From Acidobacteriota bacterium (GTDB taxonomy: Bacteria; Acidobacteriota; Terriglobia; Terriglobales; Acidobacteriaceae): 35,023 nucleotides of DNA. Under the pieces are notes generated by a model that worked only from the letters and a program-made list of their open reading frames with translations, was not told where the DNA came from and did no database searches. Made by a program: the position numbers and the translations under genes. This document shows, piece by piece, positions 12,470-20,429 of the stretch; position 1 is the first letter of the stretch, and every line of letters begins with the position of its first letter. The stretch spans positions 1-35,023 of the forward strand of contig JAKAAZ010000003.1 in assembly GCA_021802085.1 (NCBI GenBank), read 5' to 3'.

Positions 12470-13753
12470 TCACCGCGCCGCGGATCTACTGGAAGCTGGG
12501 ATGGGGGCATGGCCAACCATATCATTGGCGGGCTGGAACAATTGCAATTGGACCTTCCAAGTGACGGATTCTCCAGGCGCCAGCGTCACCATGCCGGTAT
12601 CGGCGCCGTGCCACTCACCGCCAAACGGATCGTTGTAGTTGAACTGGGGCTCGAGAGCGATAAAGGACTTGTCTACCGGAGAATAGACCTGAATCGCGCG
12701 GATGTGGGGCGACATCGCGGTGATGCGCATGCCGTAGTTCGCTCCCAGGTCGCGGATCTCCGACACGACTTGGCCTTGGGCATCGCGCTTCAAATCTACA
12801 AACGAATCGTCCACGAGTTTGTCCGGCAGCGGCGCGCCTTCCAGCCCAGTGTAGTCGTATTGCGTTCCCAGTACCGGCAGCAGCGTGCCTGTGGGGAATA
12901 CGTCGTCATAATTATTGACGTCGGCGCGCATATCCGCGGGAACATGCAATCGCGCATTGGCGCGGCTTCCGCTGGGCAGTTGAAAATACGGATGCCAACC
13001 GACGCCGACGGGTTCGGGCTGATTCCCGGTATTCGTGGCGGTCAGGGTTGCCGTCACTGTGCCCTGGTCGAGTGCAATCGTCACCTTGACTTCATTGTCG
13101 GAAAACCAGTGGCCATTCGCCGGGAGACGATAGACGGCTGTAGCCTCCGCAGTGTCAGGATCGGACTGAATGGAAACATTGTCCGCCTTGGCTGCCACCA
13201 TCTGGCCATGCATGGCGCACCATTGGGCGCCAGGGTTTTTGCCGCGCCAATTGGCGATCAGCGGCACTTTGCGTCCATGCCAGACGGCGGTCACGATATG
13301 CTCCCCGTTTTTTTTGTCGAGCGTCACCGGGCCGAGGATACGGTTGGCAAATGGGAACAGGAGAGCCCCTCCCATGGAAAAACTTTTGTTCCCGTCCGGA
13401 TCGTCCGTGCCGTCGTTCAGGATTTTCGTCGCGGCATCGAGCGACGGCGATGTCAGCAACGAGACTTCGCCTCTTCCCGGAAGATACGCCGTAATCTGAA
13501 AGACATTCATGCCCCGTCCGGGCAACAGAGTGACGCTTAAGAACTCTGGCGCCGCTCCGACGCCGCTCTGCAGGCGACGCAATTCGATTGCTTTCTGTCC
13601 GCCGACCTCGGGCAGGTTCGCCGAGGCGGTCGCCGTCGGAGACGGCGGAGGCGCGGGAGGGCGAGATTCGCAGCCAAGGTTCCATCCAGCCACAGCCATG
13701 GACAGCAGGCTGATCCATGCTATCCGTTGCAGCACATTCGTTCGAGCATCCAT
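12470..13753 (-). CDS. Aldose 1-epimerase family protein, predicted lipoprotein
   Basis: GVGWHPYFQLPSG, FIALEPQFNYNDPFG; N-terminus from Met at 13753 has a hydrophobic segment ending in a possible lipobox (WNLGC). The upstream part of ORF 12470..14062 is likely spurious. Confidence 0.85.
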   Translation of the reverse strand: MDARTNVLQRIAWISLLSMAVAGWNLGCESRPPAPPPSPTATASANLPEVGGQKAIELRRLQSGVGAAPEFLSVTLLPGRGMNVFQITAYLPGRGEVSLLTSPSLDAATKILNDGTDDPDGNKSFSMGGALLFPFANRILGPVTLDKKNGEHIVTAVWHGRKVPLIANWRGKNPGAQWCAMHGQMVAAKADNVSIQSDPDTAEATAVYRLPANGHWFSDNEVKVTIALDQGTVTATLTATNTGNQPEPVGVGWHPYFQLPSGSRANARLHVPADMRADVNNYDDVFPTGTLLPVLGTQYDYTGLEGAPLPDKLVDDSFVDLKRDAQGQVVSEIRDLGANYGMRITAMSPHIRAIQVYSPVDKSFIALEPQFNYNDPFGGEWHGADTGMVTLAPGESVTWKVQLQLFQPANDMVGHAPIPASSRSAAR

Positions 13754-13847
13754 CTTTTGCAAATCTTCGAACCTCTTTCGCGCGCGATTGCAATCGGCGA
13801 TCTCGCCGATAACAGGGTATCGTATTCCCGCCGGGATGGAAGTCTTG

Positions 13848-14711
13848 ATGCGTCCCAGAAGCGATGCCACGGTGTCGCAATCGACGATCGTCCAACCTGA
13901 GACACCGCGCTTCTGTAATTGGGATGCGAACCGTACAATTTCCGATGTGACTCGAATCGGTTCGCCGGCAGGCGGCAGGAAAAATACGGATCGGCTTCCA
14001 GAACGTGGTGCGTCTGGCCCGACGAAGGCCGAGTCCGCCTTTGAAGAGCTTGCCGGCCGCATCGCTGCCTGCGAGCTATGTCCGCGGCTGCGGACCTACT
14101 GCGCCGAGATCGCGCGGGTCCGGCGGCGAGCCTATGCCGACCACACCTATTGGGGAAAACCTGTTCCTTCGTTCGGCGACGCGAACGCGCGCGTATTGGC
14201 GCTGGGCCTGGCTCCAGGCGCGCACGGCTCCAATCGCACGGGTCGTCCCTTCACCGGAGATGGATCGGGAAATTTTCTCTATCCGGTGTTGCATGCTACA
14301 GGCTTCGCGTCGCAACCCCTGGCGCATTCTTTGCAGGATGGAATGCGTCTGGACGGACTCCGCATCACGTCCGTCATTCGCTGCGCTCCACCGGGGAACA
14401 AACCGTTGCCCGGCGAAATAAAAAACTGCGCCGCATTTCTGGATGAAGAAATTTCTCTTTTGACGGATTTGCGCGTGGTGGTGTGCCTGGGAAAGATTGC
14501 GTTCGATGGATACCTTGCTCATTTGCTGCGGTTGGGAAAAATCTCCAGCCGCAAGGGACTCGTCTTCCGTCACGGAGCGGAGTATGCATCTCCGGACGGG
14601 CAACATATTCTCGCCACATATCATCCGTCGCTGCAGAACACGAACACCGGCCTGCTGACGAGTGCAATGCTGCAACGAGTGTTTGAACGGGCGCGAATTC
14701 TTGCCATTTGA
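13848..14711 (+). CDS. Uracil-DNA glycosylase family 5 (UDGb type, Fe-S)
   Basis: GLAPGAHGSNRTGRPFTGDGSG, YHPSLQNTNTGLLT and Cys pattern CELCPRLRTYC. Start uncertain; ATG at 13836/13848 or a downstream GTG are possible. Confidence 0.9.
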   Translation: MRPRSDATVSQSTIVQPETPRFCNWDANRTISDVTRIGSPAGGRKNTDRLPERGASGPTKAESAFEELAGRIAACELCPRLRTYCAEIARVRRRAYADHTYWGKPVPSFGDANARVLALGLAPGAHGSNRTGRPFTGDGSGNFLYPVLHATGFASQPLAHSLQDGMRLDGLRITSVIRCAPPGNKPLPGEIKNCAAFLDEEISLLTDLRVVVCLGKIAFDGYLAHLLRLGKISSRKGLVFRHGAEYASPDGQHILATYHPSLQNTNTGLLTSAMLQRVFERARILAI

Positions 14712-14723
14712 CCCTGCAAATAA

Positions 14724-15752
14724 TCAGCGCGAGCCATGCGTGTCCCCATAGAAACTGACCGTAAATATGGGGGTAAGCTGACGAGGATAATTGGACCGCG
14801 CCGCAGTGAAAGTAGTCCCAGCGGCCCAGGTGATGGGATATTTTCCATGATTTGGCCATGTGACTTCCAGCTCCGGGCTCAAATCGAAATAAGCAAATGC
14901 CGGCGCATTTGCTTGTCCAAAGAACAGGCTTCGCCCGAATTGGCGTTCTTGGTTGTACTCGACGAGATACCCAAACCCCTCTTTCGGCAGCAGAACATGT
15001 TCGAGGGCACCAGCGGTCTCGAACACGTCACCATCCACCATGCGCAAACGCTGCCCTGCAGGGAGAGAATCGATACCGTTGTTGAACTGGTACGGGCCGG
15101 TGACATTGGAGGGATTTTGTATCAGTTCGGTTTGCTGCAAGTACAATTCGAAGGGCTTGAATTGCTTGCGCAACAGAAGATTCACTTGTTCATTCCAAGT
15201 CCCATTGCTGGTCTGAGAAGCTCCTGAAAGGTTCGGGTTCAGGCGCTTGTACTTTCCCGTTGGAACGTTCAGATCGACGGCCAGATCCATTGAAGGCAAC
15301 GTCCAGAAGTTATAGCGGTCTTTCTCCTTCGCAAATTGCCATTTCACCTGAAACAAGGTGTCGCCATAGCCTATCGAGGAGCTACTCTGGCCTTGCGGAG
15401 CCTGGGGATAGCTGATGCGGTTGTAATCGAACGGAGCGTATACATCCATTTCGAACCCTCGGCCCAAGCCATAGGCGAATTTGGTAGGGACATAGATATT
15501 GTTCTGCCCATTCGATCGATAGTTGAAGAGATAGGGTTCAATGTAGTATGAACCGCCAGGGTCGACATCCGCAGTGCCGGTATAAAAGGGGCCGCTGGTA
15601 TTGTCCACCCAACGCACTTCATTTGGCGAAGATGCTGTAGTTGGCCCAACCTCGGGAGCTGTCTGCGCATGGCCGAGTGTAGCGTAAATCGACAAGGCTA
15701 TAAAAACAATGCCGCAATAAAGATATCTTGAAAATCGAAGCAAAGTATTCAT
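14724..15752 (-). CDS. Predicted secreted/outer-membrane beta-barrel-like protein
   Basis: Signal peptide (ending ...LGHAQ), aromatic/glycine-rich alternating pattern, sequence similar in style to transporter-like OMPs. Confidence 0.65.
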   Translation of the reverse strand: MNTLLRFSRYLYCGIVFIALSIYATLGHAQTAPEVGPTTASSPNEVRWVDNTSGPFYTGTADVDPGGSYYIEPYLFNYRSNGQNNIYVPTKFAYGLGRGFEMDVYAPFDYNRISYPQAPQGQSSSSIGYGDTLFQVKWQFAKEKDRYNFWTLPSMDLAVDLNVPTGKYKRLNPNLSGASQTSNGTWNEQVNLLLRKQFKPFELYLQQTELIQNPSNVTGPYQFNNGIDSLPAGQRLRMVDGDVFETAGALEHVLLPKEGFGYLVEYNQERQFGRSLFFGQANAPAFAYFDLSPELEVTWPNHGKYPITWAAGTTFTAARSNYPRQLTPIFTVSFYGDTHGSR

Positions 15753-15884
15753 TCAATTCTTCTCCAGATAAGCCTGCAAGCTTCCGTCAAAACGGTTTGA
15801 GCCCGTCGACATGTGATGTGCCGATGAAGCTAAGCTCAATCCACACCATCAACGATGCGAATCGAAAGAAACGGTCTGACAATG

Positions 15885-16295
15885 CTATTTTTCTGGAGGG
15901 GCGCGGTCCGAATGAAGAGCAATGGGCAGTATTGCCACGTCGGGCAGAAGGTGGAAGGGGCTGACAACCCCAATGCAGACGCGGGGATCCTCAAGATAGA
16001 CAAGGCCCGCGGAAAACGCTGGGTGAATTTGCGTGTGGTCTTGCAGGTGTTGGTTTTGGATCGCGCTACATCTGCGATCTGTACGCTCACTGTCCGCCAT
16101 GGCCGTCATGGCGTGCAGGTCGTCTGTCATTGAGATGACAGGTAGAAGCAAAAACGACAGGACAATCACCGTGAGATACCGGCGGCGTCTGTCAGCCGCC
16201 CCCGAAAAACCCAGGGAACGGCTTTGCTTCGTCCGCAGACTCGCCAGAAGTGTCAGGGACAACAACAACCATGCGAGATTGAGAAGAAGCTCCAC
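15885..16295 (-). CDS. Small hypothetical membrane-anchored protein
   Basis: 136 aa with two N-terminal hydrophobic segments (MELLLNLAWLLLSLTLLASL; YLTVIVLSFLLLPVISMTDDL). Confidence 0.6.
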   Translation of the reverse strand: MELLLNLAWLLLSLTLLASLRTKQSRSLGFSGAADRRRRYLTVIVLSFLLLPVISMTDDLHAMTAMADSERTDRRCSAIQNQHLQDHTQIHPAFSAGLVYLEDPRVCIGVVSPFHLLPDVAILPIALHSDRAPPEK

Positions 16296-16319
16296 TCCAA
16301 TAATTTACCTCAATTGTAG

Positions 16320-16526
16320 AAAATCTCTAACCGCAAAGGACTCATCTTCAGTCATGGAGCGGAATACACCCTACCCGGGGCACCTTATATCCTGGCCGCG
16401 TATCGCCCCTCGTTGCAAAACACGAATACAGGGCTGCTAACGAAGGACATGCTGCAGCGCGTATTTGAACGTGCGCGGACACTCGCCGGACTGCCGGCGC
16501 GGAGCGGCGGAACGAAGCAAGCATAA
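16320..16526 (+). pseudogene. 3' remnant of a second family 5 uracil-DNA glycosylase
   Basis: KISNRKGLIFSHGAEYTLPGAPYILAAYRPSLQNTNTGLLTKDMLQRVFERARTLAG aligns with KISSRKGLVFRHGAEYASPDGQHILATYHPSLQNTNTGLLTSAMLQRVFERARILAI of the 14.7 kb gene: 42 of 57 residues identical by hand count. A stop codon lies immediately upstream. Confidence 0.85.
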
Positions 16527-16607
16527 GCTTGAGCGAACTGTTGGCGAGGAATTTTTCCGCGTACTAAAGGTACCGCGTGATCCGCTCCCGCGCCCAGCCA
16601 GGGTAAA

Positions 16608-16629
16608 GTATCCTCCGGCCGGAGGATAC
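16608..16629. repeat. Perfect 22-bp palindrome GTATCCTCCGGCCGGAGGATAC
   Basis: 11-bp arms, no spacer, direct from sequence. Confidence 0.9.
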
Positions 16630-16688
16630 ATGGTTGCTGGCCCATCAAAGGGGCCACGACACTGGCCGTTGTCAGCTTACGCACCGCA

Positions 16689-18134
16689 TCACTGCTTCCC
16701 CGGTGTCGACACCCCAGGGTGCTCGGGCGCCGGAGCAGTCGGCAACGCAGGAAGTTGGGCGGAAGGCGGCGGATAGCGGCGCAGATAGGTCCCGATATCC
16801 GGCACCGACTCCAGAATATCCACCTTCGGCTGATAGACGCAGTCTCCTGGCCATGCCGACATAGACGGTGGATTCTCCGGCACGGGATTGATGATCAGCG
16901 GCGTGTTCGGCGGCCCGTCGAAGTCGAAGGCATCGAACATGGGGTCGGCCTTGCCGTCCCGCGCTGTCAGGTGGCTCAGGCCGAAGCGCTCCTCGATGAA
17001 CTTGAGCATCGACGTGAAATCGTAGGTCTTGTGCGAAATGTAGTCGTGTTTCGCGAAGGGCGAAATCACCATCGTGGGCACGCGCGGTCCGTAACCGTAG
17101 GCGTCTACCAGCGGCGGCGGCACGTGGTCGTAGAAGCCGCCGTAATCGTCCCAGGTCAGGAATACGACGCTGTCTTTCCAGTACGGACTTTGCATCAATG
17201 CGTTGAGCAGGCGCGTCACATACCACATCCCCGTCACCGGATATGCCGGCGGGTGCTCGCTGTCGATCCCCATCGGAACAATCCAGGAAACTGCGGGCAG
17301 CGTTCGGTTCTTCAGGTCGTCGAAGTATTCGTTGAGCGAAACCAGGTGCGACATGTCCGCCGGATTATCGCGGACGGCTTTGAAGCCCGGCAGCGGGTTC
17401 CACAGCGAGTAGTGCTTGGGGTCGGGATCGGCAAGATAGTTGCGCTTGCCGGGCGGAGGGGAATTGATGCGCTGGGTTTCCACGTAGTACTTCCACGGAA
17501 TATTCGCCTTGTTGAACAGCTTCACCATGGTGGCGAAGCTGTAACCGCCAGGCGAATCCAGATCGTTCTCAATCTGCTTCAATGAGAACTCGTTGTTGAT
17601 CACCCCGCCCGACTGTGCCGCCACCGTAAAAAGATGGTTCGGCAGACTGGCGCCCATCAGCGACGAAAAGAACCTGTCCGCCAGAACGTAATGCCGCGCG
17701 TAAGCCCAGTAATTCGGGATGTCGCGCTGGTCGTAATAACCCATCGTGTAGGCGCTGCCCTCGGCCCACACGAACCCGTCCATCAAACCGTGATCGTAAT
17801 CGGCATGTGCAATCACCCAGCGATGAGCCAGGTCGCATGGAGGCATCTTCGGCTGCATGTGGAACGGAGCCACGCACTTCGACGACCCCGGCAACTCCGG
17901 AGCACAGGCATCGGGCGGAGGGCCGTCGGCGCCGGGATAGGTGCCAAAGTAGTTATCGAACGAGCGGTTCTCTTGAATAATCCAGATGATGTGCTGGACT
18001 TTCTGGATTCCGGCGGGTGCCCCCTGCTGCGGAGCGGGCAGCGTCGCCCCTGCCGCCCCAGACGCCGCGCAGAACAAGAACGCCGCGCAAGTCACTGCTG
18101 CTGCATAACTGGATCGAGGGATGAATCGCATCAC
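16689..18134 (-). CDS. Phosphoesterase family protein (phospholipase C/acid phosphatase type), secreted
   Basis: [55 protein letters not shown]-terminal signal peptide. Confidence 0.93.
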
Positions 18135-18459
18135 AAACTCCTTCTTTGGGAGCTACTGCGAGCTACAGCGCACTCATTCTCGCCGTCGCCTACTTTGCAT
18201 ACATCTTGACGCGGGGAGAAGCAAGCCGGAATTTCCGTTTTGCCTTTCGGCTAACCAATATACCCCCTTATCTCGCTCTCGCGATTTTTTTTATAGGTAC
18301 CAAGGCCAAAGACCCAGGTCATGCCCATCTGGGCCGCTTCCGGGGCCAAAGAACCATCCTTTGCCCCATTTCGAAGCGATTTCTCGGACACTTCTTCGTC
18401 AACCCCAACCACTCGCCGGCCTTCCGCCGTTACCACGGACATGGTAGAAACCCGCGGAC

Positions 18460-20172
18460 TTAGCCGAGCGCCTTCTCTACCGCGTCGGCGAGGTACTTGA
18501 GACCTGCTTTCACATCCTTGCCGAGATGGGCGCGCAGGGCGCGACGTCCCCGCTGCTGCAACACGCTCAAATCCCCTGCGGCCTGCGCGTCGATGACTAC
18601 ACCGAAGGTATATTTCTGTTCTGGGATGGCCAGGTCCCGCGCATGGTCGGCTGTCACCTGAAGAAATACTCCGGTGTTGGGGCCGCCTTTGTAATCCTGT
18701 CCGGTGGAGTGCAGGAAGCGCGGACCGAAGCCGAGACAGGTCGCCACCCGCTTCTTGTCCCGAACCGCATGGCGCAACTGTTGCAGAGTTTTTTCGTGCT
18801 CGCGGTCGCGCTGTATGAATCCCAGTACGGCGAAATAATCTCCTGCCTTGATTTGCGCCAGATGCGCGCGCAAATATCCGATCAGGTCCGGCTGCCCGAC
18901 GTCTTGCGCGCCATGGAGAACCGCCGCATAGCTGGAATCGGCAAATAATTTGACGCGGCCATCGTCGAAGATCGGCGTCTCGATCGGCACCTTGCCGGTC
19001 TTTTCGTATTCGTCGGTCAGGCGCCTCGTTTCAATCTTCGCGGCCTCGACGTCGGGCTGATTGAACGCGTCGATGCCGATGACTGACCCGGCGACGGCAG
19101 TCGCGATCTCCCAGGTAAAAAATTGCCCGGCGGCATCGTAGACATCGCGCATCGCCAGGCGAACGACCGGCTGCCCGGCCTTCTCCAGCTTCTCCACGCC
19201 CGCATCGAGGCGGGCATTGTCCGCGCCCTCCAGCCGGACGTAGGCAAAAATTCGATCCTCGCCATAGCGATCGGGGGCGGCGATTTCTTCCAGATCCACC
19301 GGCGTAATGCCCTTGCCCTGTTTGCCGGTCGACTCGGCAATCAGTTGCTCAAACCACGCTCCCATGTCGTAGATGGCGGGCGACGTGAAGAACGTAATCT
19401 TGTCGCGCCCGGCGTTGGCGGCGACGCCCAAAATCAACCCAAGCTGTGCTCCTGGATTTTTCTTTACATCTGTCGCATGGCAGGCATCGACGGCGGACTT
19501 CGCTTTGGGCAGGAACTTCTCCACATCCAGGCCCATCACAGCGGCGGGAACGATACCGAAATTGGAGAGCGCGGAATAGCGCCCGCCTATCTGAGGATCG
19601 CCAAAAAAAATGTGGCGGAATCCATCCGCCTTCGCGACCTGCTCCATGTGCGAGCCGGGATCGGTGACGGCGATGAAGTGCTTGCCCGCCTCCACGCCGA
19701 CAGCTTCCTTCATGCGCGCCATGAAGTATTGCTTGAGGACATTCGGCTCCAGAGTTGAGCCGGATTTGCTGGACACAATGACGACGGTCTTTTTCAGGTC
19801 GACACTTTGCTCGGCGGCACGCACCTGGGCCGGATCGGTGGAATCGACAATGGACAGACGCGGAAATCCATCCTGCCGGCCGAACGTCTCCGCCAGCACC
19901 TCGGGACAGAGACTGGAACCGCCCATGCCGAGGAGCAGGGCATACTGGAAGCCGGCTGTCTGAATGTCACGAGCCAGAGCGCGAAATTCGACCAGGCATT
20001 TTTGCTGACGCTCCACAATATCCAGCCAGCCCAGCCACTTCGATTCATCCTGGTTCGTCCACAGGGCCGCATCGCGCGCCCACAGGCGACTGATTTTTCC
20101 ATTCTGCCAATCAGCGACGGCGGCGGAAAAATCCTGCTCAAGTTTTGCCGGAAGCGTATAGCGAAATTCCAT
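18460..20172 (-). CDS. pgi: Glucose-6-phosphate isomerase, resembling the C-terminal half of fused transaldolase/Pgi proteins
   Basis: LLLGMGGSSLCPEVL, VIVSSKSGSTLEPN, FFGDPQIGGRYSALSNFG. Confidence 0.9.
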   Translation of the reverse strand: MEFRYTLPAKLEQDFSAAVADWQNGKISRLWARDAALWTNQDESKWLGWLDIVERQQKCLVEFRALARDIQTAGFQYALLLGMGGSSLCPEVLAETFGRQDGFPRLSIVDSTDPAQVRAAEQSVDLKKTVVIVSSKSGSTLEPNVLKQYFMARMKEAVGVEAGKHFIAVTDPGSHMEQVAKADGFRHIFFGDPQIGGRYSALSNFGIVPAAVMGLDVEKFLPKAKSAVDACHATDVKKNPGAQLGLILGVAANAGRDKITFFTSPAIYDMGAWFEQLIAESTGKQGKGITPVDLEEIAAPDRYGEDRIFAYVRLEGADNARLDAGVEKLEKAGQPVVRLAMRDVYDAAGQFFTWEIATAVAGSVIGIDAFNQPDVEAAKIETRRLTDEYEKTGKVPIETPIFDDGRVKLFADSSYAAVLHGAQDVGQPDLIGYLRAHLAQIKAGDYFAVLGFIQRDREHEKTLQQLRHAVRDKKRVATCLGFGPRFLHSTGQDYKGGPNTGVFLQVTADHARDLAIPEQKYTFGVVIDAQAAGDLSVLQQRGRRALRAHLGKDVKAGLKYLADAVEKALG

Positions 20173-20429
20173 AGTGTCGCGCTCTCTTCGGTTCTTTAGG
20201 ATTCTGTTGCGTACATCTCGATCGTTTCGTCTTTAATGATAGATGCGCTGGGCGGAGGATAGGAAGCGGCGCACCTAAGATCGGCGGCGAAGCAGTCCGG
20301 ATTTAGAATGAGAAAAGAAGCAGTTGACTCGAGGATTGTTGTCGGGCACGATGCCGTGCGCCCAGAGCACGGGCGTTTGTCACTCACCGCGATCGCTGCC
20401 ACCCAAGCGTACGAAGGAGCAATTTTACA

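Follow-up and report, generated by a model that had tools for sequence, protein, structure and literature searches.

A start-less uracil-DNA glycosylase tail beside a non-native phosphoesterase gene, a probable xenologous passenger in an Acidobacteriaceae genome

Truncated pseudogenes at the edges of horizontally acquired or recombined blocks are a general phenomenon in bacterial genomes. The locus described here presents a comparable case, since a partial uracil-DNA glycosylase (UDG) gene, which diverged under constraint before its truncation, stands at the junction of an insert that is absent from close relatives; however, the insert carries no recognized mobile-element genes and no donor was found among the loci compared. 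The nearest structural reference is PDB chain 2d3y from Thermus thermophilus, a family 5 UDG (UDGb). An intact UDG gene at the locus is alike over 215 aligned residues (E = 1.1e-65), whereas the partial gene, referred to below as the tail, aligns only with the C-terminal 50 residues of 2d3y (E = 8.5e-10). Roughly three quarters of the protein, counted from its N-terminus and with the GLAPG motif among them, are missing from the tail, which has an arginine at the histidine position of motif 2. In a family 4 enzyme, the motif 2 histidine is critical for catalysis (PMC5387724). With respect to the PF04185 family of phospholipase C and acid phosphatase enzymes, the only intact gene of the insert matches the whole profile.

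The window, meaning the entire stretch of 35,023 nucleotides that was analysed, is contig C78 of a draft genome (G000; 314 contigs, 85.6% complete). The genus sample used for the comparison comprised only ten genomes, this one included, and several of them are incomplete draft assemblies. The features of the locus are as follows.

13974 to 14711, plus strand: intact family 5-type UDG gene (PF03167, PDB 2d3y, congener orthologs)
14724 to 15752, minus strand: OMP-like gene, a native neighbor of the UDG gene (same place in the congener contigs that reach it, 44–95% identity)
15885 to 16295, minus strand: small membrane-type ORF, native (same place in congener contigs of sufficient reach; collinearity with G004 extends to 16294)
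16295 to 18458, no strand: insert relative to G004 (blastn collinearity and junction alignments; left end uncertain by about 25 bp)
16320 to 16526, plus strand: start-less C-terminal tail of a second UDG (translation, six-frame match, alignment and structure-chain match)
16604 to 16663, plus strand: decayed copy of an intergenic two-hairpin element that occurs at dispersed sites (16608–16629 form a perfect palindrome)
16689 to 18134, minus strand: xenologous phosphoesterase gene (PF04185, E = 6.9e-79 over the whole profile), convergent with the UDG tail
18460 to 20172, minus strand: glucose-6-phosphate isomerase-like gene, the native right flank (PF00342; 91% DNA identity to G004)

The intact gene matches Pfam PF03167 with an E-value of 6.3e-32, which places it in the UDG superfamily, and its orthologs are present in nine of nine congeners. 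After 2d3y, the next-best chain was 4zbx (E = 3.5e-9), and the NCBIfam model for family 4 scored 68 bits, below its cut-off of 125. By sequence, the intact gene is thus closest to family 5 and not to family 4. Position 13974 is provisional as a start; homology begins near residue 20 of the 13974–14711 stretch.

The tail lies on the same strand as the intact gene and begins 1.6 kb beyond its end (14711 to 16320), the distance that an earlier note on this DNA had given. It translates to KISNRKGLIFSHGAEYTLPGAPYILAAYRPSLQNTNTGLLTKDMLQRVFERARTLAGLPARSGGTKQA*, an open stretch of 68 codons with no frameshift, directly preceded by an in-frame TAG at 16317–16319; both of the latter had been pointed out in the same note. 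An alignment with the C-terminus of the intact UDG reproduced exactly the 42 identical residues of 57 that had been counted by hand. Within its own genome, the tail was recovered as a six-frame match to the intact UDG with an E-value of 3.3e-21. Taken with the 2d3y match, this resemblance is far beyond chance. Homology to UDG starts abruptly at 16320, and the reading of the tail as the remnant of a longer gene is supported. Motif 1 is absent along with the rest of the head. Motif 2 reads RPS in place of HPS, a change that was confirmed and that is unique to the tail: the histidine is present at this site in all 57 of the other distinct UDG sequences compared. No in-frame start codon was found in the tail sequence before TTG at 16414 or ATG at 16448. 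Lacking a start codon, motif 1 and the motif 2 histidine, the tail as read from its sequence cannot be functional as a glycosylase, in agreement with the suggestion that it is probably dead. A conserved, independent small gene was also considered and rejected for the genus, as the congeners have no such gene and the tail has no start codon.

The divergence of the tail resembles that of a working gene. The dN/dS of the tail was 0.10–0.11 against the UDGs of its own genome, G004, G008 and G006 (57 aligned codons). Across all orthologs, values were mostly about 0.10–0.13, and lower or undefined where synonymous sites approach saturation, a range equal to that found among functional orthologs. The many synonymous differences noticed previously are thus borne out. 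At codon positions where the resident UDG and its G004 ortholog agree, the tail differs at 7 of 55 first, 5 of 52 second and 18 of 39 third positions (13%, 10% and 46%, respectively). The low dN/dS together with the third-position excess indicates that most of the divergence arose within a working gene. Judging from this pattern, the tail was still part of a working gene while it diverged in another lineage, and its truncation came afterwards. Some decay following truncation would fit the seven replacements, the motif 2 histidine to arginine change among them, at codons that the resident and G004 genes share.

The proportion of synonymous differences (pS) is 0.66 between the tail and the resident UDG and 0.63 between the tail and G004; between the resident UDG and G004 it is only 0.40. 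Divergence in another lineage before arrival is indicated by these values, along with the dN/dS of about 0.1. A recent tandem duplication is disfavored since the synonymous distance is too large and the second copy is absent from the congeners. On the same two grounds, the earlier preference for an old paralog or xenolog over a fresh duplication stands.

In a tree that included the intact gene, as had been proposed, the tail joined the resident and G004 sequences on a long branch with support of 97/89. A smaller tree limited to the genus did not resolve the branching and had no starred branch, and neighboring arrangements were not rejected in tests. With just 57 aligned codons, the placement is weak. 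The tail also ends in LAGLP, which resembles the ends of the G006, G007 and G008 UDGs and is missing from the shortened ends of the resident and G004 proteins. Because the tail groups within the genus, the simplest reading is a donor that would lie within the genus or beside it.

The surroundings of the tail were examined by comparison to G004, the nearest congener. In blastn alignments, collinearity between G004 and the window covers 12487–16294 at 88.9% DNA identity, breaks off, and resumes over 18459–20193 at 90.8%. Between these stretches G004 has 60 bp and the window has 2164 bp, consisting of the tail, a spacer and the phosphoesterase gene that converges on the tail. The tail therefore lies within a block that is absent from the nearest relatives, and in none of the nine congeners was a tail found adjoining a phosphoesterase. 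In contrast, the OMP-like gene and the small ORF adjoin the UDG gene in all eight congener contigs that extend far enough (those of G001, G002, G003, G004, G005, G006 and G008, and a second G009 contig); in G007 and on the main contig of G009, the assembled sequence stops too near the UDG gene to show them. As they are found beside the UDG gene in congeners, the two genes are ancestral and not inserted. It had been suggested that these two genes formed a block inserted between the UDG copies, and this proposal was rejected. In the synteny comparison that had been called for, the tail block is extra relative to G004, no congener shows a second UDG tail of its own, and the OMP side is native. 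No match to the OMP-like gene was found among the Pfam and NCBIfam profiles searched.

The sole other second tail match in the genus comes from a 3.6-kb contig of G009 (G009:C153, L039) that hardly differs from G008. Its identity to G008 across the UDG tail is about 98%, and the other UDG of G009 is on C294. The contig may be a contamination of the G009 assembly.

These comparisons bear upon an old tandem duplication. Under that scenario, an ancestor would have carried two adjacent UDG genes, one of which then lost its head; the phosphoesterase would have come in beside it afterwards, and other lineages would have lost the copy entirely. Two related sequences of one family, on one strand and 1.6 kb apart, are what such a duplication would leave, as is the grouping of the tail with the resident and G004 genes. 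Yet it would require a duplication, a head deletion, a phosphoesterase insertion and independent full losses, and the remnant occurs in none of the sampled congeners. The phosphoesterase is on the tail side, so its insertion could not have removed the head. Moreover, the synonymous distance of the tail from the resident gene exceeds that between the resident and G004, although G004 does not have the block. Duplication followed by decay, as first suggested for this locus, is therefore rather unlikely, and similar genes that lie close together need not represent a tandem duplication.

The junctions provide further information. In consecutive 20-base blocks, identity to the G004 UDG gene is 7, 6 and 9 before 16320, which is at the chance level of 6–9 in 20, and 17 immediately after. 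Native homology upstream of the small ORF fades across 16294–16319. The sharp start of UDG similarity beside fading native homology places the left edge of the block inside the UDG gene of the donor. The TAG at 16317–16319 may well be native intergenic sequence as opposed to a mutation in the UDG gene. At the right edge, the sequence becomes similar to G006 again from about 18451, immediately outside the stop codon of the isomerase gene. Analysis of ORFs and a profile search identified no transposase or integrase in the insert, the phosphoesterase being the only gene recognized there. A search for a target duplication or end repeats identified only a 7-bp GTAGAAA near both edges, which is expected by chance in about 9% of random stretch pairs from the window. 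Transposition with target duplication was rejected on this basis. Plasmid carriage was rejected as well, with just weak phosphoesterase-domain matches of no more than 16% coverage. Thus, the insert does not have the hallmarks of mobile-element cargo.

The phosphoesterase falls below the NCBIfam cut-offs for both the phosphocholine-specific phospholipase C and the Burkholderia-type acid phosphatase. Its nearest homologs, at 76–78% identity, are from other Acidobacteria MAGs. A genus-type phosphoesterase exists elsewhere in the same genome (G000:C295), with 86% identity to the G004 copy and only 60–61% to the inserted one. The inserted phosphoesterase is therefore not the genus's own and, given a genus-like UDG tail, the block is composite. 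Among the genomes with the nearest phosphoesterases, those that yielded a family 5-type UDG have one only 47–55% identical to the resident UDG. With UDGs no closer than 55% and none nearby, these genomes were rejected as donors. No UDG convergent on such a phosphoesterase was seen among the 79 phosphoesterase loci and the UDG loci compared, and outside the window no UDG of the tail's type lay near a phosphoesterase at the compared loci.

From these observations, the tail is probably a dead xenologous passenger that was brought in with the phosphoesterase on a piece of about 2.15 kb from an unsampled close relative. The piece, comprising the phosphoesterase and the convergent last quarter of a UDG gene, would have been inserted between the small ORF and the isomerase gene after the lineage split from that of G004. 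Its left end would have fallen within the donor UDG gene, so that the head never came. The probable donor is a congener or near relative outside the sample, which would itself have acquired the phosphoesterase from outside the genus at an earlier time. After arrival, the tail would have had neither a start codon nor glycosylase function, and the motif 2 histidine would have given way to arginine. The likely route is that a fragment of donor DNA was taken up and then joined illegitimately or with the help of microhomology. Joint arrival of the tail and the phosphoesterase is inferred, because the donor locus was not found among the compared loci; the donor and the joining mechanism are inferences as well. 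The literature on failed transfers offered nothing directly usable.

Two separate events are another reading of the block, with the UDG tail brought in by a recombination of its own and the phosphoesterase inserted alongside afterwards. A genus-like tail next to a phosphoesterase that is not genus-like would be accommodated, as would the failure to find a donor with both among the loci compared. However, a single insertion suffices, since native homology ends next to the tail and picks up again past the phosphoesterase; two events are considered unlikely. A foreign block mis-joined into the contig during assembly or binning is very improbable. While the assembly is fragmented and incomplete, and the comparison is one of assembled sequences, both flanks are collinear with G004 on one contig and two matching false joins would be needed. 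The GC content of the insert (0.588) also equals that of the window (0.580).

As a passenger of this kind, the tail is ordinary genomic debris with a slightly instructive history. It matters little by itself, yet it marks where the import begins and suggests the make-up of the donor. One conceivable role is that the tail and spacer now serve as upstream DNA, either promoter or leader, for the small ORF and OMP-like genes. Ahead of the start codon of the small ORF, only about 25 bp of native sequence remain next to the insert, so that an effect on transcription of these genes may be envisaged. No sigma-70-like promoter was predicted near the upstream region of the small ORF, and such a role is highly doubtful.

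The site between the small ORF and the isomerase gene is variable. In G008 (L032:5135-7234), and also in G009 (L039), the gap holds a different PF04185 phosphoesterase of 699 aa, and the OMP-like gene of G008 at that locus is much diverged (44%). The gap has thus either acquired phosphoesterase genes repeatedly or is strongly variable. In G001, G002, G003 and G005 (L034, L035, L036 and L037), a chalcone/ACP synthase III-like gene follows the small ORF in place of the isomerase gene, and gene order at this site thus changes within the genus. Another large indel is found nearby: in G004 (L031:8520-11806), about 3.3 kb separate the isomerase gene from its neighbor, compared to 0.24 kb in the window (20193–20429).

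The spacer contains one additional feature. At gathering scores, Rfam gave no match anywhere in the window, and no convincing Rfam family was found for the two-hairpin element at 16604–16663. The element is a low-copy, dispersed sequence of two adjacent hairpins, GTAAGTATCCTCCGGC..GCCGGAGGCTTTACGGTTGCTGGCCCCTCAAAGGGGCC; in the window copy, the loop of hairpin 1 is missing. Further copies are located at G000:C8:1754-1808, G000:C300:1865-1919, G004:C72:1726-1780 and G005:C335:12985-13038, as well as at loci L216–L227. Within the family, the element occurs in 9 of 150 genomes and 6 of 79 genera.
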